From: Rhododendron vialii
Taxonomy: Eukaryota; Streptophyta; Magnoliopsida; Ericales; Ericaceae
Direction: 5' to 3'
Length of the DNA: 64,000 nucleotides
Assembly: GCF_030253575.1 (NCBI RefSeq)
Contig: NC_080562.1
Location: 28,369,852-28,433,851, forward strand
In this document: piece after piece, positions 1-64,000 of the stretch
How the letters are laid out: the number at the start of each line of letters is the position of its first letter
Position numbering within the stretch: the stretch's first letter is position 1
Translations under genes and position numbers: made by a program
Notes under the pieces: generated by a model
The model's database searches: none
What the model was told of the DNA's origin: nothing
What the model saw: the letters and a program-made list of their open reading frames with translations, nothing else

Positions 1-1080
1 ATTTGAGACTAAGCATCACAAGATGAATCATGTGCCTCCAGAATCGAGGAACCACGACAGAGTAAAATACCATTGAAAGTAATTTCCACAATTGAATTTG
101 TATTGAACGGTGTCAATGAATAGACATCAATAGATATGTCACCACAAGATTTGACTCCAACAATGGAAATTCGAACCAACCGAATAGGCAAGGGCAAACA
201 AATAGATACAAAGCGGATGTGAGTTCAAATCATATGACTTCTTAGTCATGGGACCAAAATGGATGATGGCCTAAGCAGGCAATAATGGGAACAAGGTCTA
301 AATTTTGATAATGCTAACAAATTTGTATTTCATACGGTACATAGCCAAAGGTTGGGTTCAATAGATTGATGTTGCAAATTAAATACTTATATGGAATAAC
401 GGTTACAAGCAAACGACGAAAATGGTAATCGCATCAAGGAAATCCAAACTGACCAATGAAAATTTATCTCAAGCAGGGTAATGTCAAAATAAGACCTTGA
501 ATAGGGAACGAGGAACATTTGTCAAATTTGATAGCAACAGTGTCATAAGATACTTCGCTACGAGAATTTAAATATGCCCAAGAAAAGCTAGGAAGGGATC
601 GCATGATAATTGACTCAAATACTAAGAATTATAACAGGTCATCTACACGCTGGACTACACGGAAGAATAAATTACGATACAATTCTAACAATATTCAGCT
701 TGGCCAATGAAAGATGGTAATAAAAGAAACAACTCTTCTAAAATCACATTTGAGATGTCACCAATCATTATGGATACGTACAATCCCTGTCCAAATCAAA
801 CCAAATCTCGATATAAGCAATTTAAAGAGGTCAAGGACAACACTTCAATATGGAATGATTAACCTCTAATCTCGGCAAATATGATCTATCGATATTTCTC
901 AACACGCGTGGACTAAGATTTCTTATTTTCTATTCCAAACATGGACAAGAATAGGATTCTCAATGAGTGAAATGCTTCCAAATCAAAAGTATTGTAGAGA
1001 ATGAGTAGCACAACTAGGAATAAATGATACCTCAAACAAGTGACGCTTCTAAGAGCTAGAGAATAAGGGGGGGTGGTAGT

Positions 1081-1641
1081 TTAGCGGCGGAACTGCATCT
1101 GTTGCTGTTTCGACGTATGTGTTTCCTGCTGCATCGAGCTCGACTCACCATGTACTCCCAATCCCCGAGGACAATTCCTTGCCATGTGGCCACGTTCACC
1201 GCAAGTATAACAAGATCCCCCACGCCGTGGACATTGAGAACGAATATGGCCAAACTGACGACATCGATAACACATAGTCTGACACTTGAGAAGAGCTCTT
1301 GGAGTCCCGATATAAAGAGGTGGCTTAAAGCCCTGCTGGTCCTGAGTAAAGTGATCTGATACTCTAGGTTTCTTCCTTCCTGAACTCTCAACACTCTCTG
1401 AAGATGATCTTGTGCTAATGACTTGATGCCTAGTTTCTCCCACATTCACACCACCTTGCGCACCTTCCAGTGTCTCGACACCTTTTCCGCACTCAGCAAT
1501 CTCAGGAAACATCGCTTCATCCCTGGTACATTGACTCACTTCATTCTCCCCGTTTGCACTACAACCCTGGTGCTCACGATCCCTGGTCTCACCACACCTA
1601 TCTCCACGTCTCGAAGACATCCTACTATGGAAGCATAACAA
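1081..1641 (-). pseudogene. gag nucleocapsid (double CCHC zinc knuckle) fragment of element A
   Basis: A 186-codon minus-strand frame ends in two closely spaced zinc knuckles: CYRCRQFGHIRSQC and CYTCGERGHMARNC. This is the nucleic-acid-binding nucleocapsid end of a Ty3/gypsy gag. The upstream part is polar and low in recognisable structure, and the capsid region is not identifiable. The same frame occurs on the plus strand in element C at about 51347-51906, so this part is shared by the family. It is a retroelement fossil, not a host gene. Confidence 0.8.
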
Positions 1642-2559
1642 ATGAAATCATCAACATTAGCCACCTAATCGTGTGCTACAGGTCTCCAACCTTTCCAACC
1701 GAAGTCAACAACTTTGTGCCACTCTATGTGATATATATATGCAATGTCACATCGACATACCGACTCTTCATGCAAGCACACATGTGATTTTGTAAAAAGA
1801 TGCAGCAATGTTTGAACCCATGAGACTAAAAGTCTTCCCACGGTCTCGAGGTATTCTAAACTTATGCTCTGATACCAAGTTGTCACGCCCTCGATTTTCA
1901 ACATAATAAAGTAATACATTTCAATAAAAGAGAAACCTCGCATATCATATACGTTACCCAAATGAGTTTCCCACCTGTTTAATTTACAAACAAGTCCTTA
2001 AGTTTAGATAATCACAACTTTAGTCAAAAGAAAATTCAGTAATAATTAGTTACAAAACCACCTTTAACAAAATGAGATCTTCACAAAGATGACGAAATAA
2101 CCAGTGAAGTCAGCTTCCAAAAGTCTTTTACTGTCAAGCACACAATGCATGCAATCTATTGCCCGGCATCAGAACCTGAAAAGAAAGATTTGGTTGAGCT
2201 ACACTAGCCCAGTAGAAAATTCTAAACTCAAGCTATATGCAATTTGAATGAACCATGCACCGAGAATGAATGAGTACTGACAGATACGCCTATACCACAA
2301 ATGACTACCAACAAGCTGCGAATTATCGCCTAAGAGTCCTAGACTTCACATCAATGTCACTAGCCGTTTACTTCTTTAACTAGTTACATTATTAAACTCA
2401 CGTCATCTCACACTTGTCTATAATCAAATCAAAACATCTTATTATTCTCCGTATGATAGTACAATCTTTCTCGTGTCCACATTGATCTTCATTAAATCCC
2501 TTAATTGCAAAACCTTTCTTTTCCTTTAATCCGGTATTTCCCATCAAATAATCACTAGG

Positions 2560-2780
2560 GTCACCTCGGGTCTAGTTCCCTCGAGCGCAGGGTCACCCCG
2601 AGTCTTTTCCCTCAATAACAATAATCGGGTGGGGTCACCTTGGGTCTAGTTCCCTCGAGCGCAGGGTCACCCCAAGTCTTTTCCTCCAATAATATGAATC
2701 AGTTGGGTCACCTCGGGTCTAGTTCCCTCGAGCGCAGGGTCACCCCGAGTCTTTTCCCTCAATAACGACCACTTGGGTCA
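2560..2780. repeat. Tandem repeat inside LTR A (three units)
   Basis: Three imperfect copies of a unit of roughly 70-80 bp contain GGGTCACCTCGGGTCTAG and CGCAGGGTCACCCCGAG. The same three units, inverted, occur in both LTRs of element C (about 50216-50426 and 56009-56219). They are part of the LTR family, not a separate satellite. Confidence 0.8.
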
Positions 2781-3496
2781 CCTTTCACACTTTTCACAAT
2801 CGACATCATTTCATAATCAATTTCATCATCCCTTTAACGGTTATACCACTGAATTTTAATTAGTCATTATGTGACTCCACAAATATACATGTTCATGCCT
2901 CCTCTTTTGTTTACATACCCGCATCTTACATGACGTACTAAGCCCATACATAAATTCCTACAATACTCTGTCCATTAGTTATTCACTTTCATTCCGCTTC
3001 CTATTTCACAAACATCCATTCATTCAATTAAATCCAAAGACCATTTAATCAATCGCATGGTATTATAAGACCAACAATCTGCCATATCGCATATACTCAA
3101 ATACACACGTCCTCACCGTACCCCTAAGTACACCCCCGTACCTTCGCACGCCACATATTAACCCATGACTAGACTTTACGATGCCTGATCATCTAGTTTC
3201 TATACTTGGAGTCCGTAAAAGCATGTACTAAACGAATCTAAGAAATTTACGAATCGAGAGAGGGAACGGATTGCAACACTACTCATCGAATCCCTAGACA
3301 TGTTCACTCTAGTCCATTGGATGCCACTCTAAGTGAGAAATGAGTAATACTCATCAAAACACTTGGAAGAATACACAAACAAGCTCATTAGAGTCGATGA
3401 GAGGCTTTGACATGCAAGTTGAAAGATATAGGAAAGCAGCTGAAAGATACTGCAGCAGCTCAAATAAGCAGGTGAAAGCAGGTGAAACTTCTAGTC

Positions 3497-3826
3497 TCCT
3501 ACCGGTAGGCAAGCAAGTCCTACCGGTAGAACTTGAAAACAGAAAGGCTAACATTCCGATAAAACCTAGACCTACCGGTAGGTGAACAAGTCCTACCGGT
3601 AGAAACTCCAATTCACGCAACCTACCGGTAGGCAAGCAAGTCCTACCGGTAGAACTTGGAAACAGAAAGGTCAACATTCAAATTCGAGCGTGACCTACCG
3701 GTAGGCAGGAAATTCCTACCGGTAGAAGTTCGATACATTGAGCAGCTTTTGAGCTGCTGCTGTACGTTTGAGCTGGTTGACAAAATTTCTCAATCGTTCT
3801 ACCGGTAGGGTAAAAGCTCCTACCGG
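3497..3826. repeat. CTACCGGTAG palindrome array in LTR A
   Basis: About ten copies of the 10-bp perfect palindrome CTACCGGTAG (often extended to CCTACCGGTAGG) occur here in pairs about 10-25 bp apart. The same array is in the LTRs of elements B and C. It produces long apparent reading frames rich in PVG/PTGR/STGR that are not genes. Confidence 0.9.
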
Positions 3827-4433
3827 TAGGAGGAGTTACTTACAGACGATTTCAACAGATTTCGACAGAAAATTTTAAGTTTCGATCCAATCTCAACGAC
3901 AACCAATACCAGCTCGAATAAGGCATAAAAACACTCAAATAGCATATAAAGTGAGGTAGAATTCCCTACCTCGAAGTCGGAGCACGAAACCCAAGAAGTT
4001 ACAAGCCCTAGCTTTCCGAAAACCTCAAAATCAACCGAATCTCCTCCTCCGAGCGAAACCCACGAAATTTCAAGCTCAACAACGTGAATGGATGAAGGTT
4101 TGGAGGTTATTTACCATGGGTTTTGAGTCCGGGTTGGAGAGGGAGAGAGAGAGGGTGTGTGCCGAGAGAGAGGGAGAGCCGAGAGGGAGGGGAAAGAGAG
4201 AGAGAGACAACCGAGAGCAAAAATGAAAAGGGGAAAAAAATGTTCCCTGGAAATAATTGAGGTTGGGGAAATGATCCCATGCCCTCACACCACACACTCA
4301 CACATGCACCTCTCATCCATTTATCTTTATATCCTTCCGCAAATACGTCATTCCATATATCCACACCGTTTATCTCGACAAGCCGCACAATTATATAAAA
4401 AAAAAATATAGGCCTAAAATACGGGTCTTTACA

Positions 4434-48497: not shown

Positions 48498-49085
48498 TGT
48501 AAAGACCCGTATTTTAGGCCTATATTTTTTTTTTATATAATTGTACGGCTTGTCGAGATAAACGGTGTGGATATATGGAATGGCGTATTTGTGGAAGGAT
48601 ATAAAGGTAAATAGATGAGAGTTGCATGTGTGAGTGTGTGGTGTGAGGGCATGGGATTATTTCCCTCACCTCTATTATTCCCAGGGAACATCTTTCCCCT
48701 TTTCATTTTTTTTTTCTTCTTCTTTCTCTCGGCTGTCTCTCTCTCGGCTCTCCCTCTCTCTCGACACACACACTCTCTTTTTCCCTCTCCAACCCGGACT
48801 CAAAACCCATGGTAAATAACCTCCAAACCTTCATCCATTCACGTTGTTGAGCTTGAAATTTCGTGGGTTTCGCTCGGAGGAGGAGATTCGGTTGATTTTG
48901 AAGTTTTCGGAGTCTAGGGCTTGATCAATCGCTTGGGTTTCGATCGAATCACTTGAGGTAGGGAATTCTACCTCTCTTTATATGTTTTATGAGTGATTTA
49001 GTGCATAAATCGTGCTTGTAATGTTGTGTTTGAGTTTGGATTGAAAATTCGTAGTTGCTGTCAGAATTGTCTGTTTTTCCTGGTT

Positions 49086-49485
49086 TCCTACCGGTAGGCC
49101 CGTCCCTTCTACCGGTAGAACGTTGTTACTTTACCAGAAAATCGATTCCCTACCGGTAGGAACTCTTCACCTACCGGTAGAACGATTGAGAAATTCCTTC
49201 GTAACCAGCTCAAACGTACAGCAGCAGCTCAAAAGCTGCTCAACGTATCGAACTTCTACCGGTAGGGATTCCTTACCTACCGGTAGGTCAAGCACAAATT
49301 TGAACGTTGGCCTTTCTGTTCCCAAGTTCTACCGGTAGGACTTGCTTGCCTACCGGTAGGTTACGTGAATTGGAGTTTCTACCGGTAGGACTTGTTCACC
49401 TACCGGTAGGTCTAGGTTTTACCGGAATGTTAGCCTTTCTGTTTTCAAGTTCTACCGGTAGGACTTGCTTGCCTACCGGTAGGAG
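49086..49485. repeat. CTACCGGTAG palindrome array in 5' LTR of element C
   Basis: Twelve CTACCGGTAG palindromes arranged mostly as six pairs with 12-25 bp between partners. Identical array in the 3' LTR at 54879-55278. Confidence 0.95.
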
Positions 49486-50215
49486 ACTAGAAGTTTCACC
49501 TGCTTTCACCTGCTTATTTGAGCTGCTGCAGTATCTTTCAGCTGCTTCCCTATATCCTTCAACTCGTATGTCGAAGCTTTTCTTTGACTCTTATGAGTTT
49601 GTTTACGCATCATTCCAAGTGTTTTGGTGAGTATTACTCGTTCCTCACTTAGAGTGGCATTCAATGGACTAGAGTGAACATGTCTAGGGATTTGATGAGT
49701 AGTTTTGCAATCCGTTTTCTCTCTTAACTCGTAAGATTCTTAGATTCCCACAGTGCATGCTTTTACAGACTCCGAGTATAGAAACTAGATAATCGGGCAT
49801 CGTAGAGTCTAGTCGTGGGTTGATATGTGGTATGCGAAGGTACGGGGGTGTACTTAGGGGTACGGTGAGGACGTGTGTATTTGAGTATATGCGATATGGT
49901 AGATTGTTGGTCTTATAATACCATGCGATTGATTAAATGGTCTTTGGATTTAATTGAATGAATGGATGTTTGTGAAATGGGAAGCGGAATGAAAGTGAAT
50001 AACTAATGGACAGAGTATTGTAGGAATTTATGTATGGGCTTAGTACGTCATGTAAGATGCGGGTATGTAAACAAAAGAGGAGGCATGAACATGTATATTT
50101 GTGGAGTCACATAATGACTAATTAAAATTCAGTGGTATAACCGTTAAAGGGATGATGAAATTGATTATGAAATGATGTCGATTGTGAAAAGTGTGAAAGG
50201 TGACCCAAGTGGTCG

Positions 50216-50426
50216 TTATTGAGGGAAAAGACTCGGGGTGACCCTGCGCTCGAGGGAACTAGACCCGAGGTGACCCAACTGATTCATATTATTGGAGGAA
50301 AAGACTTGGGGTGACCCTGCGCTCGAGGGAACTAGACCCAAGGTGACCCCACCTGATTATTGTTATTGAGGGAAAAGACTCGGGGTGACCCTGCGCTCGA
50401 GGGAACTAGACCCGAGGTGACCCTAG
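50216..50426. repeat. GGGTGACC triplicate in 5' LTR of element C
   Basis: Three units with CTCGGGGTGACCCTGCG and CTCGAGGGAACTAGACC. Same block in the 3' LTR at 56009-56219 and, inverted, in LTR A. Confidence 0.9.
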
Positions 50427-51100
50427 TGATTATTTGATGGGAAATACCGGATTAAAGGAAAAGAAAGGTGTTGCAATTAAGGGATTTAATGAAGATCAAT
50501 GTGGACACGAGAAAGATTGTACTACCATACGAAGAATAATAAGATATTTTGATTTGATTATAGACAAATGTGGGATGACGTGAGTTTAATAACGTAACTA
50601 GTTAAAGAAGTAAACGGATAGTGACATTGATCTGAAGTCTAGGACTCTTAGGCGATAATTCGCAGCTTGTTGGTAGTCATTTGTGGTATAGGCGTATCTG
50701 TCAGTACTCATCCATTCTCGGTGCATGGTTCATTCAAATTACATATAGCTTGAGTTTAGAATTTTCTACTGGGCTAGTGTAGCTCAACCAAATCTTTCTT
50801 TTCAGGTTCTGATGCCGGGCAAATTATTGCATGCATTGTGTGCTTGACAGTAAAAGACTTTTGGAAGCTGACTTCACTGGTTATTTCGTCATCTTTGTGA
50901 AGATCTCATTTTGTTAAAGGTGGTTTTGTAACTAATTATTACTGAATTTTCTTTTGACTAAAGTTGTAATTATCTAAACTTAAGGACTTGTTTGTAAATT
51001 AAACAGGTGGGAAACTCATTTGGGTAACGTATATGATATGCGAGGTTTCTCTTTTATTGAAATGTATTACTTTATTATGTTGAAAATCGAGGGCGTGACA

Positions 51101-51118
51101 ACTTGGTATCAGAGCATA
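51101..51118 (+). promoter_or_regulatory. Primer-binding site of element C
   Basis: TGGTATCAGAGC, complementary to the 3' end of initiator Met-tRNA, lies just inside the 5' LTR. Element A has the same site in reverse, next to its LTR at 1881. Confidence 0.85.
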
Positions 51119-51346
51119 AGTTTAGAATACCTCGAGACCGTGGGGAGACTTTTAGTCTCATGGGTTCAAACATTGCTGCATCTTTTTACAAAATCACATG
51201 TGTGCTTGCATGAAGAGTCGGTATGTCGATGTGACATTGCATATATATATATATATCACAATAGAGTGGCGCAAAGTTGTTGACTTCGGTTGGAAAGGTT
51301 GGAGAGTTGTAGCACATAATTAGGTGGCTAATGTTGATGATTTCAT

Positions 51347-51906
51347 TTGTTATGCTTCCATAGTAGGATGTCTTCGAGACGTGGAGATAGGTGTGGTGAG
51401 ACCGGGGATCGTGAGCACCAGGGCTGTAGTGCAACGGGGAGAATGAAGCGAGCCAATGTACCAGGGATGAAGCGATGTTTCCTGAGATCGTTGAGTGTGC
51501 GAAGAGTGTTGACATTCTGGAAGGTGCGCAAGGTGGTGTGAATGTGGGAGAAACTAGGCATCGAGTCGTTAGCACCAGATCATCTTCAGAGAGTGTTGAG
51601 GGTTCAAAAAGGAAGAAACCTAGAGTATCAAATCACTTTACTCAGGACCAGCAGGGCTTTAAGCCACCTCTTTATATCGGGACTCCAAGAGCTCTTCTCA
51701 AGTGTCAGACTATGTGTTATCGATGTCGTCAGTTTGGCCATATTCGTTCTCAATGTCCACGGCGTGGGGGATCTTGTTATACTTGCGATGAACGTGGCCA
51801 CATGGCAAGGAATTGTCCTCGGGGATTGGGAGTACATGGTGAGTCGAGCTCAATGCAGCAGGAAACACATACGTCGAAACAACAACAGATGCAGTTCCGC
51901 CGCTAA
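51347..51906 (+). pseudogene. gag nucleocapsid (double CCHC) fragment of element C
   Basis: Homologous to the frame at 1081-1641 of element A. The knuckles CYRCRQFGHIRSQC and CYTCDERGHMARNC are readable. No capsid or protease domain is recognised. Treated as a retroelement fossil. Confidence 0.8.
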
Positions 51907-53879
51907 ACTACCACCCCCCCCCCCCCTATTCTCTAACTCTTAGAAGCGTCACTTGTTTGAGGTATCATTTATTCCTAGTTGTTCTACTCGTTCTCTACAA
52001 TACTTTTGATTTGGAAGCATTTCACTCATTGAGAATCCTATTCTTATCCATGTTTGGGATAGAAATAAGAAATCTTGGTCCACGCGTGTTGAGAAATCTC
52101 GATAGATCATATTTGCCGAGATTAGAGGTTAATCATTCCATATTGAAGTGTTGTCCTTGACCTCTTTAAATTGCTTATATCGAGATTTGGTTTGATTTGG
52201 ACAGGGATTGTTCGTATCCATAATGAGTGGTGACATCTCAAATGTGATTTTAGAAGAGTTGTTTCTTTTATTACCATCTTTCATTGGCCAAGCTGAATAT
52301 TGTTAGAATTGTATCGTAATTTATTCTTCCGTGTAGTCCAGCGTGTAGATGACCTGTTATAATTCTTAGTATTTGAGTCAATTATCATGCGATCCCTTCC
52401 TAGCTTTTCTTGGGCATATTTAAATTCTTGTAGCGAAGTATCTTATGACACTGTTGCTATCAAATTTGACAAATGTTCCTCGTTCCCTATTCAAGGTCTT
52501 ATTTTGACATTACCCTGCTTGAGATAAATTTTCATTGGTCAGTTTGGATTTCCTTGATGCAATTACCATTTTCGTCGTTTGCTTGTAACCGTTATTCCAT
52601 ATAAGTATTTAATTTGCAACATCAATCTATTGAACCCAACCTTTGGCTATGTACCGTATGAAATACAAATTTGTTAGCATTATCAAAATTTAGACCTTGT
52701 TCCCATTATTGCCTGCTTAGGCCATCATCCATTTTGGTCCCATGACTAAGAAGTCATATGATTTGAACTCACATCCGCTTTGTATCTATTTGTTTGCCCT
52801 TGCCTATTCGGTTGGTTCGAATTTCCATGGTTGGAGTCAATCTTGTGGTGACATACCTATTGATGTCTATTCATTGACACCGTTCAATACAAATTCAATT
52901 GTGGAAATTACTTTAAGTGTTATTTTACTCTGTCGTGGTTCCTTGACTTTGGAGGCACATGACTCATTCTGTAACACTCAGCCTTAACTTGTTGGAAGGT
53001 CTTACCCTTCCCGGTATTGGACAAATTTTTGATCTTGTATCAGTTAACTTACTAGAGATTTGTTTCACTTCTTGTATTTATCCTTAATATCGACATCGTT
53101 CAGTTGCTAAAGGTTATTCACTGACTCTGTTGACTCGAAAAGCAATAAGAAAGTTATGATCAGTCATTTCAAATTTCTTGGGTTGTCATAAAAAGGTATT
53201 TTGAATTGTTGCCAAACCGTCCTGAAGATTCCACGTGTTCTTTGAATTTCGGATGCCTCGTTACCATTCTTCCAATTCTTGATTGACACTACTTGAGTTT
53301 TGTAGCTTATTCGTTTCGTTTGAGATGACAAATCGAATCCTTCTCATGATATAGAATCACCCAACCTAGAATGAAAATTTTGTGCGACTTTTAGAAGAAC
53401 TGGCTTGTGTTATGGACCCGCTAAAACAATTAATTCGATTCGCCAACGATATTTGGAAGCTCGAGGGAGAATGACCGAAAAGAGAAAGGTAAAGATCGTC
53501 AAAGATTGCTAACTGCGGAGGGCCGACCAAAGGATTGTGTTGACTGTCAACGTCACCCAATGTTATTTGAAGAAGGGAAATCATGAACTTCGTAAAGCAT
53601 AGTTGCGTTGGGGTTTGTCTCGTTTTGGGCAGAAAGGAAGCGTTCACCGTAAGAAAGATAGTTTAAGTGTCGGACACTATGTGCATGTTTTGGGATACCC
53701 AGGCGACAACCGGTGAAATCCACTTGGAAGAGGCGCTTGATCACCGCCCATTCTAGATGGAAGTCTCGGGAAGTCAATTGGATTATCCGGTTATACTTAG
53801 GAGGTAAGATCTCTATAGTGAGATAGATAATTGTGTATAGGATTTGTATAATAAAGAAAAGTTTAGAAACTGTGAACCG

Positions 53880-54120
53880 TTTGACGTTGCCGCCTAACTT
53901 TTTCAAAATATATGACGCATTCTGTATACGGAGATTGAGGAGGTATGAAATAAATCCATTGCATGTGTTAGAAAGGTCCGAAATTGAATTAGAAGTTCAA
54001 GTGTCCTATGATGAGAAACCGATGCGTACCTTAGACTCGCGTAGTCCATTGTTGAAAGGTAAGCTGATGTTGTTAGTGCATGGTCACGTGGAAATGGGGG
54101 TACGAAGTTCGAAAGATATA
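53880..54120 (+). pseudogene. Integrase C-terminal trace in element C
   Basis: LPPNFFKIYDAF, RRYEINPLHVLE and MRTLDSRSPLLKG-type words match the C-terminal part of Ty3/gypsy integrases near the end of pol. Only this tail is recognisable. Element B holds the equivalent region at about 5200-5420. Confidence 0.6.
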
Positions 54121-54277
54121 CGTGTGTTTGTTGTGGTCTGCTTGATATGAATCTAGACGTAGACTTCGATGGTTATTGAATTGTTGTATAATGGATAGTG
54201 TTACAGTTGGAGTATGTTGATGTGATGCTTGGCATGATTAGGCTTGCCTTATCTAATTTCGAGGACGAAATTTCTTT

Positions 54278-54290
54278 AAGGAGGGTAGGG
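54278..54290 (+). promoter_or_regulatory. Polypurine tract of element C
   Basis: AAGGAGGGTAGGG directly before the 3' LTR, the usual primer for plus-strand DNA synthesis in LTR elements. Element B has the equivalent tract before 5700. Confidence 0.8.
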
Positions 54291-56893
54291 TGTAAAGACC
54301 CGTATTTTAGGCCTATATTTTTTTTTTATATAATTGTACGGCTTGTCGAGATAAACGGTGTGGATATATGGAATGGCGTATTTGTGGAAGGATATAAAGG
54401 TAAATAGATGAGAGTTGCATGTGTGAGTGTGTGGTGTGAGGGCATGGGATTATTTCCCTCACCTCTATTATTCCCAGGGAACATCTTTCCCCTTTTCATT
54501 TTTTTTTTCTTCTTCTTTCTCTCGGCTGTCTCTCTCTCGGCTCTCCCTCTCTCTCGACACACACACTCTCTTTTTCCCTCTCCAACCCGGACTCAAAACC
54601 CATGGTAAATAACCTCCAAACCTTCATCCATTCACGTTGTTGAGCTTGAAATTTCGTGGGTTTCGCTCGGAGGAGGAGATTCGGTTGATTTTGAAGTTTT
54701 CGGAGTCTAGGGCTTGATCAATCGCTTGGGTTTCGATCGAATCACTTGAGGTAGGGAATTCTACCTCTCTTTATATGTTTTATGAGTGATTTAGTGCATA
54801 AATCGTGCTTGTAATGTTGTGTTTGAGTTTGGATTGAAAATTCGTAGTTGCTGTCAGAATTGTCTGTTTTTCCTGGTTTCCTACCGGTAGGCCCGTCCCT
54901 TCTACCGGTAGAACGTTGTTACTTTACCAGAAAATCGATTCCCTACCGGTAGGAACTCTTCACCTACCGGTAGAACGATTGAGAAATTCCTTCGTAACCA
55001 GCTCAAACGTACAGCAGCAGCTCAAAAGCTGCTCAACGTATCGAACTTCTACCGGTAGGGATTCCTTACCTACCGGTAGGTCAAGCACAAATTTGAACGT
55101 TGGCCTTTCTGTTCCCAAGTTCTACCGGTAGGACTTGCTTGCCTACCGGTAGGTTACGTGAATTGGAGTTTCTACCGGTAGGACTTGTTCACCTACCGGT
55201 AGGTCTAGGTTTTACCGGAATGTTAGCCTTTCTGTTTTCAAGTTCTACCGGTAGGACTTGCTTGCCTACCGGTAGGAGACTAGAAGTTTCACCTGCTTTC
55301 ACCTGCTTATTTGAGCTGCTGCAGTATCTTTCAGCTGCTTCCCTATATCCTTCAACTCGTATGTCGAAGCTTTTCTTTGACTCTTATGAGTTTGTTTACG
55401 CATCATTCCAAGTGTTTTGGTGAGTATTACTCGTTCCTCACTTAGAGTGGCATTCAATGGACTAGAGTGAACATGTCTAGGGATTTGATGAGTAGTTTTG
55501 CAATCCGTTTTCTCTCTTAACTCGTAAGATTCTTAGATTCCCACAGTGCATGCTTTTACAGACTCCGAGTATAGAAACTAGATAATCGGGCATCGTAGAG
55601 TCTAGTCGTGGGTTGATATGTGGTATGCGAAGGTACGGGGGTGTACTTAGGGGTACGGTGAGGACGTGTGTATTTGAGTATATGCGATATGGTAGATTGT
55701 TGGTCTTATAATACCATGCGATTGATTAAATGGTCTTTGGATTTAATTGAATGAATGGATGTTTGTGAAATGGGAAGCGGAATGAAAGTGAATAACTAAT
55801 GGACAGAGTATTGTAGGAATTTATGTATGGGCTTAGTACGTCATGTAAGATGCGGGTATGTAAACAAAAGAGGAGGCATGAACATGTATATTTGTGGAGT
55901 CACATAATGACTAATTAAAATTCAGTGGTATAACCGTTAAAGGGATGATGAAATTGATTATGAAATGATGTCGATTGTGAAAAGTGTGAAAGGTGACCCA
56001 AGTGGTCGTTATTGAGGGAAAAGACTCGGGGTGACCCTGCGCTCGAGGGAACTAGACCCGAGGTGACCCAACTGATTCATATTATTGGAGGAAAAGACTT
56101 GGGGTGACCCTGCGCTCGAGGGAACTAGACCCAAGGTGACCCCACCTGATTATTGTTATTGAGGGAAAAGACTCGGGGTGACCCTGCGCTCGAGGGAACT
56201 AGACCCGAGGTGACCCTAGTGATTATTTGATGGGAAATACCGGATTAAAGGAAAAGAAAGGTGTTGCAATTAAGGGATTTAATGAAGATCAATGTGGACA
56301 CGAGAAAGATTGTACTACCATACGAAGAATAATAAGATATTTTGATTTGATTATAGACAAATGTGGGATGACGTGAGTTTAATAACGTAACTAGTTAAAG
56401 AAGTAAACGGATAGTGACATTGATCTGAAGTCTAGGACTCTTAGGCGATAATTCGCAGCTTGTTGGTAGTCATTTGTGGTATAGGCGTATCTGTCAGTAC
56501 TCATCCATTCTCGGTGCATGGTTCATTCAAATTACATATAGCTTGAGTTTAGAATTTTCTACTGGGCTAGTGTAGCTCAACCAAATCTTTCTTTTCAGGT
56601 TCTGATGCCGGGCAAATTATTGCATGCATTGTGTGCTTGACAGTAAAAGACTTTTGGAAGCTGACTTCACTGGTTATTTCGTCATCTTTGTGAAGATCTC
56701 ATTTTGTTAAAGGTGGTTTTGTAACTAATTATTACTGAATTTTCTTTTGACTAAAGTTGTAATTATCTAAACTTAAGGACTTGTTTGTAAATTAAACAGG
56801 TGGGAAACTCATTTGGGTAACGTATATGATATGCGAGGTTTCTCTTTTATTGAAATGTATTACTTTATTATGTTGAAAATCGAGGGCGTGACA
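54291..56893 (+). repeat. 3' LTR of element C (2603 bp)
   Basis: Same ends, length and internal repeats as the 5' LTR. Followed by AAATC at 56894-56898. Confidence 0.95.
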
Positions 56894-56898: not shown

Positions 56899-58166
56899 CG
56901 TCAGCTGACGAGCTCAGTGAGTAGCAAAGCACGTATATTAAATACAATTCCAAAACATGGATCAAAATAATTTACCATGTCATCATAAATTTGGCATATG
57001 CGGTGAACAACAAAATAATCCATTATTCCAATTAACGATTCATTCGATAAGTCTTAATGGTGATCACAATACAACCTCCAACAACAATGGGGAACCACAA
57101 CCAAAATTGATAGTATCAAGTGCCAGTGAATAAATATCCCAAAATTGGATCCAATATCGAATCTTAGGGTCACCACGAGTAGGCAGCCCGTGGAACTTTT
57201 CCCAAAGAACGATCCGGTCAATAACAACCGTTGAGCATTAGGGTCACCGGCCTAATCCGATCTTTTCCCTAATGGCCAGAGTTACCCGCACACAGATGAT
57301 TAATTTCCCTGGACTTCAAAAATATGTTCCCATCAATATCCACAAAGTTCTCACCAAAAGATTATTTGAACAACAAATGGTTTCACCAATACCGCATGCC
57401 AATTTAATATAATCAAATATAAACAATATGTGTTTCCAATTTCAATAGTAAATTTCTCAAAACAACAATTTAATGGACACAGAGAAGTTCAAAAGTACAT
57501 AACATGCTTAACCACTCACCTGGGTCCAAAGCTAATGCAATCGAATAATGCGGAACAAGCCTAACCTTAACAAAGAATCATATAACAATATTATCACTAA
57601 CTATATCATGTATAATAATGTCTATAACAATGAAGGACTGCCTATTTAACTAACCTAGACTAATTACCCAAGTTACAAGACAACTAGCAAACCTAAAACT
57701 CTAATTCCCAAGTCCAAGTTCCACGTACACATGAACCCAATGCCCCCTCCAAGTGCCGAAACCCATCTGCACGATCCACAAATACCCACCTGCATCAAAT
57801 TAATCTAGCTTACACCATCGAAACCATTTAATTCCACCACTGGTATTTATATTCAATTCATTCCACAAATATCCAATATTTTAGTAGTTCCCAATTGACT
57901 ACCATCGATCACCGCCAAACACACACCACGCCGCACACCGCCTCACCATGATGATGTTCTTTCTCTCTCTCCTGAAAAAACCCATTAAACTAGGCTCCAA
58001 CCCAAGGGTCTGACCAATCCATGGAACAAATATACGTCACAACAAAAGAAATGAAGGAGAAAATTACCTCTGATCGATAACCCAAAGAAGACCACTTCGA
58101 GACTCTTCTGGAGCCGTTGCTGCTCTTTTCTCACTAAACGTTTGAAAGACAATAGCACTAGTCTAA
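56899..58166 (-). mobile_element. Element D, right part: LTR relic
   Basis: Continues the minus-strand LTR begun at 48117. It has GGGTCACC and CTTTTCCC blocks (57170-57290) like those in the A/C LTRs, so it is a distant relative. Its right end is not resolved: it stops at or before the Helitron-like TC end at 58167. Nothing coding is seen. Confidence 0.5.
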
Positions 58167-59074
58167 TCTCTATTATAAAACAGGAGGGTGTGGGGACAAG
58201 TTGTTGGAATGGTCTGGATTGATTTGATCCGAGGGCTGAGAGGCATTCTCCTCATCTCATTAAAGAGCCCACAGTTTTATTACACAGTTCCATCACCGTA
58301 CTTCTTCTTTTCCTTCCACGTTTCAAACCCACAAACGTTCTAAACCTAAACCCCGCTGCCCCCCTGCCAGCAGCTTCATCTTTTCCTTCCAGCAGCTTCA
58401 TCTTTTCCTTCACCGTCCTTTGTCTTCTCACCAGCAGCTCCGACTCACGGAGGCACCTTCTTAGCCAACCCCGCTGCCCCCCTGCCTCACCAAGCAATGG
58501 AACGCACCCGGACACAGTGAGCCGATAGCGCATGACCATCGGAACACCACCACAAAAAAACCCTCTTGGCCCTCTTCCCTCTCTGCTTTTGAGAAGGTAT
58601 GTTTGTCCGTGAGACTGAAAATATGTTCAGGAGAATGCCTACAACGTGTTTGTGAAAATGCATGTGACTGGGTTTTGTGCTACATTTAGTTAAAGTGTAA
58701 TAGTTTTGATGCGAGAAGAATTGAATGGGAGGGGAATCTTTGTCTGAGTGCATAAGTAATTGAAAAGCAACCCCTTTTGCTTATCTTAGAGGAGATGTGC
58801 CAAGAAGTACACCTCTGTTCAATTCTAAACTTTAGATTATTAACCTTCCGAGAATCCGAAATTTTTTGACGTCAAATCCCTTTATTTTAAATCCACTCAT
58901 CCAAATGGAGCCTCAGGGTATTTTTGATTTTGGTTGGATTGTGAGACAGAATACTTCATAATCACCTGTGACTGGGTTTAGTTGAATAATTAGAGTTGCA
59001 TGTGACTGGGTTTTGTGTGCTTTGATTGTGCTACGTGTTTGTGAAAATGCCTACAACGTGTTTGTGAAAATACA
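58167..59074 (+). mobile_element. Helitron-like 5' end, copy 1 (908 bp)
   Basis: Starts TCTCTATTATAAAACAGG directly after an A, as expected for a Helitron 5' end inserted at A|T. Almost identical (about five differences by eye) to 61149-62056. Contains GC-rich CAGCAGCTTCATC repeats and a short internal repeat (ACGTGTTTGTGAAAATGC). It ends abruptly where the inverted Rep fragment begins. Confidence 0.65.
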
Positions 59075-61038
59075 CATCTCATTCCCGCGCAGACTTCCAC
59101 ATTGATATGGCAATTGAATAGTCTAGAAAGGTAAGCGTTGTACGGAACAACATCCCTGTTATCAACCGGTTGACCCCTAACAATATACACCTGACCATCA
59201 TTACGACGTCGATAGATTGGATATCCATCTTGGTCCAGTGTAGTTGTTTCCGAAAAGGCTTTGGGATATTTCTTAGTGCATTTTCCATTTTCCATACATG
59301 CTGCTTGAGGATTTCGAGCACCACATGGTCCATGTACCATGCAACCCTTAACAATATTAAAAAACAAAAAATCATAGTTAGGATATAGAAAAGACCAACA
59401 AAAAAAATAAAAAGATGTTCTTATTTGTTTGTTCATACCTTAACAGTATCAAAAAGTGAAGGGTCTTCTATAGGATCTGGCAATTCAGCACATACTACTT
59501 TATCGACCTGAGCACTTGTATGTATTTTGTCTGAACCTAGAAGAAACAAAAGTAAATGCATATGCGGTAGCCCCCGTTTTTGGTACTCAATTGTATAAAC
59601 ATATCCAACAACTTTGCCAAACACCTGCTTCTTTTTTATCTCACTCATCAAACATTTTCGCTTCAACTCAAAAACACGTGCAACCAAATCTGGACGATCA
59701 ACAGCTTTCTGATGTGGTAGCAAAGCCTCAGTAATTTCAGGCCAATTGGGATTGGCAGTCATTGTTAGGAAAATGTCTGGATGTTGATTGTGTCGTGTGA
59801 TAGCCATTGAGTCTTGAAATATTTGGAACATATATCTGGGACATCCAGGGAACGAAGATGGCAAAATAATACGTTTACCAACTTGACCAGGCCCTAACCC
59901 ATCAGGACCAATATCTGCGAGATCCTGGTAAAGTTCGGATCGAATTTTTCCTTGATTCAGCCTATGAAAGTTCAATCGATTTTGCTCAGTTGCTACCCAA
60001 GCATCTACGATAAACTCTTGGAATAGTTTCTCAGCTCGTAAAATGGTTGAGTACTCTGAGTCTCGTTGAAACAAACGAAAGCTATAAAATTCCATTTGAG
60101 TCAGTCTTTTATTTGTGTATTGTTTGGTTCGTACATCCCAATGTCTCATCTCAGGTTCCCATCCAAGCTCACCACGGGGAAACAATAGAACATAATGCAA
60201 TGGTAAATAAGCCGGGTGACATTCATTAACTCGCATTAGCCTATTATTTCCTCTCAAATGCAACACAATATCTCTCATTCCACTTTTCTCTGTTCCATCG
60301 CCAGGTAGAATTATTGCAATCTCATCTGTTGTTGGGAGATTATACCTCCGACGATCGGTTGACGAACTGTAATGAAGATAAGCAGGTAAATTTTGTCCCA
60401 CTGATTCGGATTGATTCAAAATCTCAAAAGCTCGAAGAAATTTAACAGGAAACGGATTAAATGCCAACAAACTATCTTGAATTGTCTTGAGGACATCTCT
60501 TCTCAAGTGCGGATTTCTGTGATTGCGAGCATTTAGAGCAGACTCAGGGTCGTATATGTACAGTTGAGAATAAATTGCTTCATTCCCTAGCTGTGGCAGC
60601 AATGATCCTGTTCGATGACGTAATTCACCATGGATAGTGAACGATAAAGGCCCTCTTCCATTAAGCACTCTTGTATCTAATTTAGCACCAAGACTTGTAA
60701 AAGCATTAGTTGCATTATACTCTCGACTATGATGACGAAATGATTTTGATTGCTCATCATTGCCATCGTATAACTCTTGTAGCGCCAATGGCGGTGCAAT
60801 AAGGGATGGTAGCTTAATCTTTCCTTGAAGGCAGCAAGTTCCAAAAAGTGGATGTATTAAAGATGAATTGGTCAATTTTTCACCCATCCAATGCAAGGCT
60901 TTACAATGAAGACATGATACATCCATCCTCCCGAGATAATGACGATTGAGATATCTATTAGTTTGAGGATCAACCCCTACGTTTGTAGATTCATCCTCCT
61001 CTAACTCATCATCAATAGATTGATTTTCAGAAGGTAGC
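59075..61038 (-). pseudogene. Helitron Rep (HUH) N-terminal coding region, truncated
   Basis: A minus-strand two-exon Helitron replication-initiator region. Exon 1 (59439 to about 61038) carries the conserved start (LGRMDVSCLHCKALHWMGEK, FGTCCLQGKIKLP), then HPAYLPLHYVLLFPRGE, the Helitron-like N region (SFPGCPRYMFQIFQDSMAI, TMTANPNWPEI) and the HUH metal-binding motif in YQKRGLPHMHLLLFL. A 92-bp intron (59347-59438) joins VK to GCMVHGPCGARNP, and exon 2 continues to YNAYLSRLFNCHINVEVC. It then stops at the edge of the 908-bp repeat, just before where the family has its catalytic tyrosines (YLYKYxYKG). The PIF1-like helicase half is absent. The reading frame is intact as far as it goes, so the loss is recent, but it cannot drive transposition. 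Confidence 0.85.
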
Positions 61039-61148
61039 CTACACATACATGCTAATACATATGTGAAGTAAAAAAAAAAAAGGTATAGAAATTGAAACAT
61101 ATCAAAGACAAATGAAAAAATAGATTGATTTCCAAGAGGTAGCCTACA
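61039..61148. repeat. Short tandem duplication at Rep exon edge
   Basis: GATTGATTTTCAGAAGGTAGCCTACA (61018-61043) recurs with small changes at 61123-61148. The first 20 bases suffice to see it. The copy lies directly against the TC start of the second 908-bp repeat. Confidence 0.6.
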
Positions 61149-62056
61149 TCTCTATTATAAAACAGGAGGGTGTGGGGACAAGTTGTTGGAATGGTCTGGA
61201 TTGATTTGATCCGAGGGCTGAGAGGCATTCTCCTCATCTCATTAAAGAGCCCACAGTTTTATTACACAGTTCCATCACCGTACTTCTTCTTTTCCTTCCA
61301 CGTTTCAAACCCACAAACGTTCTAAACCTAAACCCCGCTGCCCCCTTGCCAGCAGCTTCATCTTTTCCTTCCAGCAGCTTCATCTTTTCCTTCACCGTCC
61401 TTTGTCTTCTCACCAGCAGCTCCGACTCACGGAGGCACCTTCTTAGCCAACCCCGCTACCCCCCTGCCTCACCAAGCAATGGAACGCACCCGGACACAGT
61501 GAGCCGATAGCGCACGACCATCGGAACACCACCACAAAAAACCCCTCTTGGCCCTCTTCCCTCTCTGCTTTTGAGAAGGTATGTTTGTCCGTGAGACTGA
61601 AAATATGTTCAGGAGAATGCCTACTACGTGTTTGTGAAAATGCATGTGACTGGGTTTTGTGCTACATTTAGTTAAAGTGTAATAGTTTTGATGCGAGAAG
61701 AATTGAATGGGAGGGGAATCTTTGTCTGAGTGCATAAGTAATTGAAAAGCAACCCCTTTTGCTTATCTTAGAGGAGATGTGCCAAGAAGTACACCTCTGT
61801 TCAATTCTAAACTTTAGATTATTAACCTTCCGAGAATCCGAAATTTTTTGACGTCAAATCCCTTTATTTTAAATCCACTCATCCAAATGGAGCCTCAGGG
61901 TATTTTTGATTTTGGTTGGATTGTGAGACAGAATACTTCATAATCACCTGTGACTGGGTTTAGTTGAATAATTAGAGTTGCATGTGACTGGGTTTTGTGT
62001 GCTTTGATTGTGCTACGTGTTTGTGAAAATGCCTACAACGTGTTTGTGAAAATACA
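61149..62056 (+). mobile_element. Helitron-like 5' end, copy 2 (908 bp)
   Basis: Second copy of 58167-59074, again starting TCTCTATTATAAAACAGG after an A. Unlike copy 1 it continues into unique sequence leading to a plus-strand spliced gene, so this is the better candidate for the true 5' end of a Helitron that runs off the right edge. Confidence 0.65.
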
Positions 62057-62887
62057 TGTGAATGGGTTTAGTTGAATAATTAGAGATTGGGGTCGTTTTT
62101 CTTCTCCTCCACCCAAGGGGTTTTTTTGGGCTCTTGGAAAACCATTGGGTTGCTCCTCTTTTCCATTTTGTAATGCCCCAATATGTATGTCACTTTTCAA
62201 AATCCGATTGCTAAACCTAACTCTTTTAAGTAGCTACAATTGGGTTACATGAAAAAACCCATAATAGGCAGAAAAAACCAACAAAATGAGAAGCCCCAGT
62301 TAAATTGCAAACCTGAAGTTACCCATCATTCTAGCCTTTGGGTAACCTTTTTGTACTCGACTTTTCCATAACCATCTTTCCCAACGTTGGCAATCAATTT
62401 CATTTTTCATTCTCACGGACAAATACTCAATCACGGTAGAAAATTGGGTTTTTTTCTCATCTTTTGTGGAGCTCTAAAATTGTTTTTTTTTCCTCATCTT
62501 TTGCTAGGAAATAGTGGCTTCGGGGGTTTAACCTTTCATTTTACAATCGTTGTTGATGCTAATTCATTTTTTTCTCTTTCCAGGTAATTGTATGGGATAG
62601 GGGCAAGAGTATAATCGCCCTTTAATACTTTCATCAAAATCAAGATTGGAAGCTTGCTTAGCGAGTGGTACGATTTTTAAGCTTTTTTGATCTTTCTGCT
62701 TTTGACCAATCACTCTTTCTTTGCTCGCCGAAAGTCGCTCTTTCTCCAATAACACTCCAATATGGTCTAAAATTAATCTGTAGGGGGGATTGATTAGTTT
62801 TAGGGCACTTCGGCGGACTTTTTAGTTTTAGGGGACTTCGGTAGTGTGGGATTCATAGAGGGTTTTTTAATTTGTGTTCCAGAAGCA
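62057..62887. other. Leader region between Helitron 5' end and gene
   Basis: Non-coding, with T-rich tracts. It probably holds the promoter and 5' leader of the gene at 62888. No clear TATA box. Confidence 0.4.
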
Positions 62888-64000
62888 ATGGAACTTTCTA
62901 AAGGGAAAGGGAAGGCCATCTGTGTATCCAAGGGAAAGAAATCTCTACTGGATGGTGATTTGGAAAAAACCGTAAGATAAACTTTAACTCTTCATTTTTT
63001 ATTTTCTATTGATCATTGTTCTTCATTTTTCATTTTCTATTGATCACTGTTTTTCATTTTCTATTGTATAGGTTAGGTTTCTTCGAGAAAAGAATGTTGG
63101 CGTAGTGATCCATGATGAGCGAGAATTGAATCAGATTTGCATGCATGGGGTATGTCTATTAATTACATCAGGAAGTTTGTTAGTACATACATTCTAAAAT
63201 ACTGTTAATATTATTCTTTTTCAAGGAAAAAGCAAAGGCAATAGCAATTTGTGGAGGTAAAGAAAATGTTGCACCTAAAGTGGTATGATTTTGTACACAT
63301 TCCTTCAAGTTCCCTATTTTTTTTTTGGGACCAATCATTTTTATTGTCTTTTCTATATCAAGATTCTAAAGTTAATTCATCCACCGCGTAGGCACCTAAT
63401 GATAATGTTATATCAAAGGCCCAATGCTTACGACGTGAACGAGAGAGAGCAGGAGACTGCATTCAACAGAGGCGGCCCACATTCTTTCCGTCTTTAACAC
63501 CAAGTCGTCGTCGACGTGCATGCCTAGAACGTGGCTTGATGGCAACAAATATCAATCAATTGACTTCTACATCTATAGAAATTCTAGCACCAAAGCGAGC
63601 AATGGTTTCTCATGCCTTTCAATCATCATCAGTTGTGGTGCTTCCTAAAACACCAAATTTGAGGGACTATTCTGCAATAACTGTGGATAGTATGCTATGT
63701 CATCATGAATCCCATGCACACCAACATGAGGTATTGAATATTGAAGAATCTGTAGCTATGCCGAGCATTATCGAAGAATCTGATTCTGAAATATGTCATC
63801 CTACAATGCCTCCTCGGAATCTCGAGGAAGAGTTTCTAGCCGTGGCAACTCCTCCACGGAATATTGACGAAGAACTTCTAGCTATGCCGGACATATCTTT
63901 AGCTCCAATTCATCGGTAAATTTTTTTCATTTGTCTTTGATATGTTTCTATTTCTATACCTTTTTTTGTCTGTTTTTACTTCACGTTTGTGTTAACATGT
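62888..64000 (+). CDS. Spliced N-terminal part of a Helitron-associated protein (runs off edge)
   Basis: A plus-strand gene with four in-frame exons and GT/AG introns: 62888-62971 (MELSKGKGKAICVSKGKKSL), 63072-63149 (VRFLREKNVGVVIHDERELN), 63226-63282 (EKAKAIAICGGKENVAPKV) and 63392 to about 63917 (APNDNVISKAQCLRRERERA and a long basic, then Ser/Thr/Glu-rich tail with the repeat TPPRNIDEELLAM). It ends at a TAA at 63917-63919 or continues from a GT donor at about the same place (CATCG|GTAAAT). The basic RRER and RRRR patches resemble the N-terminal leader that precedes Rep in plant Helitrons, and the position downstream of a Helitron-like 5' end supports this. I recognise no catalytic domain, so it could also be an unrelated or captured gene. 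Confidence 0.5.

Follow-up and report, generated by a model that had tools for sequence, protein, structure and literature searches.

Layout of the compound Helitron

The window analysed here is a stretch of 64,000 nucleotides (C6:28369852-28433851) of a 532.6-Mb assembly in 13 contigs; positions above 64000 continue the window numbering into the neighbouring locus L009 (L009:1 = ext. 64001) and are marked "ext." Near its right end begins a compound insertion totalling 11,241 bp, in which the segments follow one another in the order A-B′-A-C-B-D, with two 5′ ends and a single 3′ end. The outer 5′ end and leader (A1, 58167-59074, plus strand, 908 bp) start after a host A at 58166, and the left flank is continuous with ext. 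69408 in the empty site. At junction J1 (59074/59075), located by source alignment, A1 meets B′, an inverted copy of the element's own Rep segment (59075-61148, minus strand, 2,074 bp) recognised by alignment to the direct segment B, by Pfam and by its reading frames. At junction J2 (61148/61149), an A^T site of B′ (source CCTACA^TATAC) is joined to the TC of the inner 5′ end and leader (A2, 61149-62056, plus strand), identified by alignment with A1 and by the order A-C-B-D in relatives. An 8,259-bp Helitron with Rep and PIF1 helicase starts there at 61149 and runs through the remaining leader and N-terminal coding part (C, 62057-64000 and on to ext. 64003, plus strand), the direct Rep segment (B, ext. 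64004-66077, or C6:28433855-28435928, plus strand) and a segment holding the helicase, hairpin and CTAG (D, ext. 66078-69407, plus strand), B and D both lying in L009.

Canonical plant Helitrons have a TC 5′ end, a hairpin and CTAG at the 3′ end, an A^T target, and Rep and helicase domains. On the same features (TC end, hairpin and CTAG, A^T insertion, Rep and helicase) the present element is a canonical plant Helitron: a TC 5′ end follows A at both 58166/58167 and 61148/61149, and the 3′ terminus consists of a hairpin, GTGCCGTAGGCAC...CTAG, and then T (ext. 69382-69408), in the canonical CTRR + T form, with homology to other family members ceasing at about ext. 69407. In 58001-70000, scanned on both strands, there were two exact matches to the 5′ end (up to seven mismatches allowed) and a single, exact match to the 3′ end, at ext. 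69382 (up to six mismatches allowed), with no 3′ end between the two 5′ ends. The tandem rolling-circle insertion that an earlier note on this DNA had entertained does not agree with this single 3′-end match, and a head-to-tail tandem Helitron was rejected, no 3′ end being found next to a following 5′ end. End bypass, also raised there, was not borne out either, since use of the 3′ end is normal and the sequence of the right flank carries on unbroken in the empty site.

Leader repeats and Rep segments

A1 and A2 both begin TCTCTATTATAAAAC after an A and align without gaps over 908 bp with five differences, and on sequence comparison their length and identity exclude a chance origin of the repeat; the next best A in the genome reached 85% over 803 bp (93-96% in pieces). 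The earlier note had described two copies of about 99% identity that carry Helitron 5′ ends and flank a minus-strand Rep region of about 2.07 kb, and each part of that description was confirmed. Its LTR-like layout did not stand, since the repeats are 5′ leaders and the single element end is CTAG. An LTR retrotransposon was rejected: one of the repeats, the second, lies inside the element, CTAG forms the outer right end, and target duplication is absent.

The minus strand of B′ holds a 572-codon stop-to-stop frame (Pfam Helitron_like_N, E 8.7e-59), and B′ differs from the direct B at 5 of 2,074 positions, the next best B in the genome being 96% identical. B′ ends before a KYIHKYIYKG stretch, which we take to be the Rep tyrosine motif, and lacks the helicase. 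The inverted and truncated Rep first noticed from the letters is a copy of the element's own Rep. The earlier note had suggested looking for an intact element with Rep in either orientation; Rep in the ordinary direct orientation is present in two relatives (L014 and L015) and in the same element just past the window end. There the plus strand encodes Rep and helicase domains (Helitron_like_N, 3.9e-58; PIF1, 1.7e-73; Pif1_2B, 3.1e-19; Pfam), and the frames contain PHMH and KYIHKYIYKG, presumably the Rep (HUH, two tyrosines) motifs. This downstream gene is split over frames: L009:1713-2498 and 2383-3654 overlap in different frames, and an additional break lies at L009:3654-3731, the breaks representing either a frame shift or an intron. 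Two derived changes of B alter amino acids in the direct Rep, and the element looks decayed.

Age and reality of the duplication

In total, 10 of the 2,982 duplicated positions differ (0.34%, 95% interval 0.16-0.62%), in keeping with the recent rearrangement proposed earlier; at an assumed substitution rate of 7e-9 per site per year the duplication would date to ∼0.24 million years ago (0.11-0.44). Divergence between A1 and A2 did not differ significantly from that between B and B′ (Fisher p 0.18). With relatives as outgroup, two derived changes were assigned to A1, two to A2, two to B′ and three to B, and one A position was ambiguous. Among the rows used to polarise A, L003/L012 and L004/L011 represent the same two places, position 310 is contradicted by L026 and position 367 shows a third base in L005, and B was polarised by L015, plus L014 at one position. 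Private changes thus occur in all four segments, which argues against a copy made during assembly. Such an artefact might be suspected in that inverted and direct repeats lie 2-3 kb apart and the junctions are known from the assembly alone, but it is very unlikely given these changes, the absence of any N across 84 kb, and a joint that falls on an exact terminus and a target-like A^T.

Host site and flanks

The host DNA is repetitive, and three of its four retrieved paralogues (L022, L024 and L029) align continuously across the joined flanks; in L029, on C4, the empty site reads letter by letter CACTAGTCTAA|TATACCTATACTCC, unchanged at the site. Because the paralogous empty site is continuous, the 11,241 bp can be placed between one host A and one T with no target duplication. 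The fourth paralogue (L023, on C11) carries a ∼240-bp insertion (L023:3874-4113), with TCTAA repeated, at the exact position that the Helitron took on C6. No match to C (E ≤ 1e-3) or to the whole element (E ≤ 1e-5) was found in the flanks (58.2 kb on the left, 14.6 kb on the right), and a nested insertion that left the remainder of the outer element in place was rejected on this basis.

Junctions and the inner target site

At J1 the leader, ending AAATACA, meets B′, and ACA is also present in the B′ source, a microhomology of 3 bp. At J2, B′ ending CCTACA meets TCTC, and since the uninterrupted source reads CCTACA^TATACATG, it was an A^T of the opposite strand that received the TC end. Each junction, queried with 150-151 bp, gave one spanning match in the assembly, at its own locus (59074/59075 for J1, with the best 40 of 43 candidates scored; 61148/61149 for J2, with the best 40 of 520 scored). 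A recurrence of the repeat-Rep-repeat unit as a whole, which the earlier note had thought worth seeking, was not seen among the best 40 candidates per junction.

A target profile was assembled from 60 left flanks (60 of 401 5′-end matches) and 35 right flanks (those with the 3′ end within the retrieved stretch), excluding the central A and T; 59 of the 60 sampled 5′ ends follow A, and 34 of the 35 right flanks begin with T. Of the element's 1,536 A^T sites, both strands included, 95.8% scored below the J2 source, as did 95.1% of the 10,102 that the window holds to the left of the element; this was a test of one site, devised after the site had been seen, and ∼4% of A^T sites score as high. For comparison, each of the 35 true sites was scored by leave-one-out and ranked against the A^T sites in the opening 20 kb of the window, which gave a median of 94.7% with the lower quartile at 87.5%, and the actual host site, which lies outside the profile, reached 97.2% (element) and 96.2% (window). 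The J2 source thus looks like a real insertion target of the family as judged from its letters, and the inner 5′ end appears to sit at a valid target; the profile score agrees with the exact placement of TC and with the A^T at J2. Plain AT content does not set the site apart, 74% of A^T sites being at least as AT-rich, and only the positional profile separates J2. TATAC is common to the host flank and the continuation of the J2 source, and none of the 35 sampled sites begins with TATAC.

These features bear on three other accounts of the locus. A1-B′ might be a separate, rearranged Helitron that had acquired a new 3′ end and landed at the A^T boundary of an existing element's 5′ end; bat Helitrons are reported to form 3′ ends de novo and to insert directly next to one another (PMC4778049). 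Such an origin is highly improbable here, however, in that B′ ends in CCTACA without CTRR and without a hairpin (−0.6 vs −11.4 kcal/mol at the true 3′ end), and the target-like J2 source site would be left as a coincidence. Microhomology-mediated template switching without a transposase, from A1 to the opposite strand of B and back to the 5′ end, would be expected to leave short homologies such as the ACA at J1 and the shared A-T at J2, but it gives no reason for an exact TC terminus at a target-like A^T and is regarded as rather improbable. Finally, in the main rival account, a Helitron X may have inserted into an A^T of a near-identical sibling Y that already carried A1 and the inverted Rep, followed either by joint mobilisation from the outer 5′ and inner 3′ ends or by 3′-end recombination that deleted the rest of Y. 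Nested siblings of this kind would explain the target-like A^T at J2 equally well, the TATAC common to source and host flank could reflect the deletion, and the model has been proposed for Fusarium Helitrons with several 5′ ends (PMC5148889). It requires, however, a second, already rearranged element within 0.6% of X, and no trace of Y was seen: J1 and J2 have one match each (best 40 candidates), the next best Rep is at 96%, and the flanks hold no element DNA. On this evidence nested siblings are unlikely.

Inverted self-insertion as the proposed origin

We propose, at about an even chance, that a canonical plant Helitron had its 5′ end duplicated by inverted self-insertion into its own opposite strand, followed by repair. 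The self-insertion probably took place in one event, either before or after arrival at this site, and we infer both this and the order of the steps from the joints. Rep would first nick the top strand at the host A^TC boundary, and a polymerase extending from the flank would copy the first 908 nt (A1), displacing the old 5′ strand (A2). The displaced TC end may then have been joined by Rep to an A^T in the Rep region, on the bottom strand of the same element, an act that would link B′ to A2 and leave the joint seen at J2. The 3-bp microhomology would then serve to join B′ to the 3′ end of A1, closing the broken intermediate. At the locus the product is A-B′-A-C-B-D, with two 5′ ends and one 3′ end at one clean A^T target, and each of the four duplicated segments has gathered substitutions of its own since then. 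The joints, their source sites, the empty site and the single 3′ end are direct observations, and the composite Helitron structure that had been one suggestion of the earlier note is found here as two 5′ ends, an inverted copy of the element's own Rep and one 3′ end.

Self-insertion is supported by the match of all duplicated DNA to one element (5/2,074 for B′/B, 5/908 for A1/A2), the fall of J2 exactly on the TC terminus and a source A^T, the high target score of the J2 source (95.8%), the 3-bp microhomology at J1, the clean empty site with a single 3′ end, and the ancestral order A-C-B-D in relatives. Counted against it are the single locus, the post hoc target test, the ordinary AT content and the TATAC common to host flank and source. 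A more specific reading is tentative and somewhat short of an even chance: transposition may have been abortive, with the transposase-bound 5′ end attacking an A^T on its own opposite strand before 3′ processing, and repair may have fixed the strand-inverted duplication as a fossil of autointegration.

Relation to known systems

Autointegration is familiar from cut-and-paste transposons such as Sleeping Beauty, whose ends can attack a target within the very transposon they belong to; the enzyme chemistry differs, a single-strand HUH (Y2) transposase being assumed for the present Helitron. The movement of Helitrons is still inferred largely from one reconstructed bat element. At this one locus every joint, its source site and the empty site are readable, and the inner joint resembles a genuine insertion. 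Were the proposal true, transfer of a 5′ end to a target could precede processing of the 3′ end, multi-5′-end and orientation-reversed Helitrons would have a route of origin, and a signature, TC joined to inverted own DNA at A^T, would be available for counting such events in plant genomes sequenced with long reads.

The reconstructed element Helraiser shares the TC 5′ end, 3′ hairpin and CTAG, A^T target, and Rep and helicase (PMC4778049, PMC5876387); relative to Helraiser and canonical plant Helitrons, the present element has an extra 5′ end and an inverted Rep segment. Head-to-tail tandem Helitrons, mentioned in PMC5876387 and PMC5148889, likewise have more than one 5′ end in a row, whereas no 3′ end lies between the 5′ ends here. 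Closest are Helitrons of Fusarium oxysporum with multiple 5′ termini and one 3′ terminus, for which self-insertion was proposed and orientation reversal discussed (PMC5148889), and which resemble the present element in its two 5′ ends and single 3′ end. The Fusarium elements are of the Helitron2 type with a duplicated 5′ part typically <200 bp, in contrast to the canonical plant type, the 908-bp duplication and the inverted own Rep of the Rhododendron element. Multi-5′-end, single-3′-end Helitrons and self-insertion are therefore already in print (PMC5148889), and the present case is a legible plant variant. Within a partial coverage of the Helitron literature, no case was found in which an element's own Rep lies inverted between two 5′ ends.

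Related loci and other repeats

Among 15 related loci compared, B was present in two, L014 and L015 (with L028 continuing L015), each time following A and C in the order A-C-B, and the remaining loci had pieces in the order A-C-D or single pieces; inverted B was found in none of the 15. The 60 sampled 5′ ends were taken in list order on C1-C7 among 100 listed of the 401 pattern matches, leaving out the double-5′-end loci L027, L030 and L031. A BLASTN comparison of the 1 kb upstream of each with the 8,259-bp element (E ≤ 1e-4, low-complexity filter) detected element DNA at none of the 60. One of them, L076, has a second 5′ end 135 bp downstream. Other arrangements include a 3′-end-like hairpin between close 5′ ends (L026 and L031), three same-direction 5′ ends at 2050, 2160 and 2645 with the first directly following CTAG and no 3′-end match in 5 kb (L030), a direct duplication in which the second copy lacks the tip (L025), and 5′ ends placed head-to-head (L027).

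Short members account for 35 of the 60 sampled 5′ ends (L034 and 34 others in L033-L092); they span 136-189 bp, 29 of them being 184 bp, and end in CTAG (34) or CTAA (1), with right flanks AT-rich at +7 to +12. At L031:2016-2404 lie two 195-bp units in tandem, 98.5% alike, each made up of a short Helitron and a few further bases that recur after the array, which suggests that the units include 3′ flank. Three tandem units of ∼755-765 bp, 92-95% alike and each with a Helitron 3′ end, lie at L032:1466-3756. Elsewhere in the window, identical 2.6-kb direct repeats at 48498-51100 and 54291-56893, with TG...CA ends and AAATC on both outer sides, constitute a very recent LTR retrotransposon (48498-56893), and a related copy (96%) lies inverted at 23-3830.
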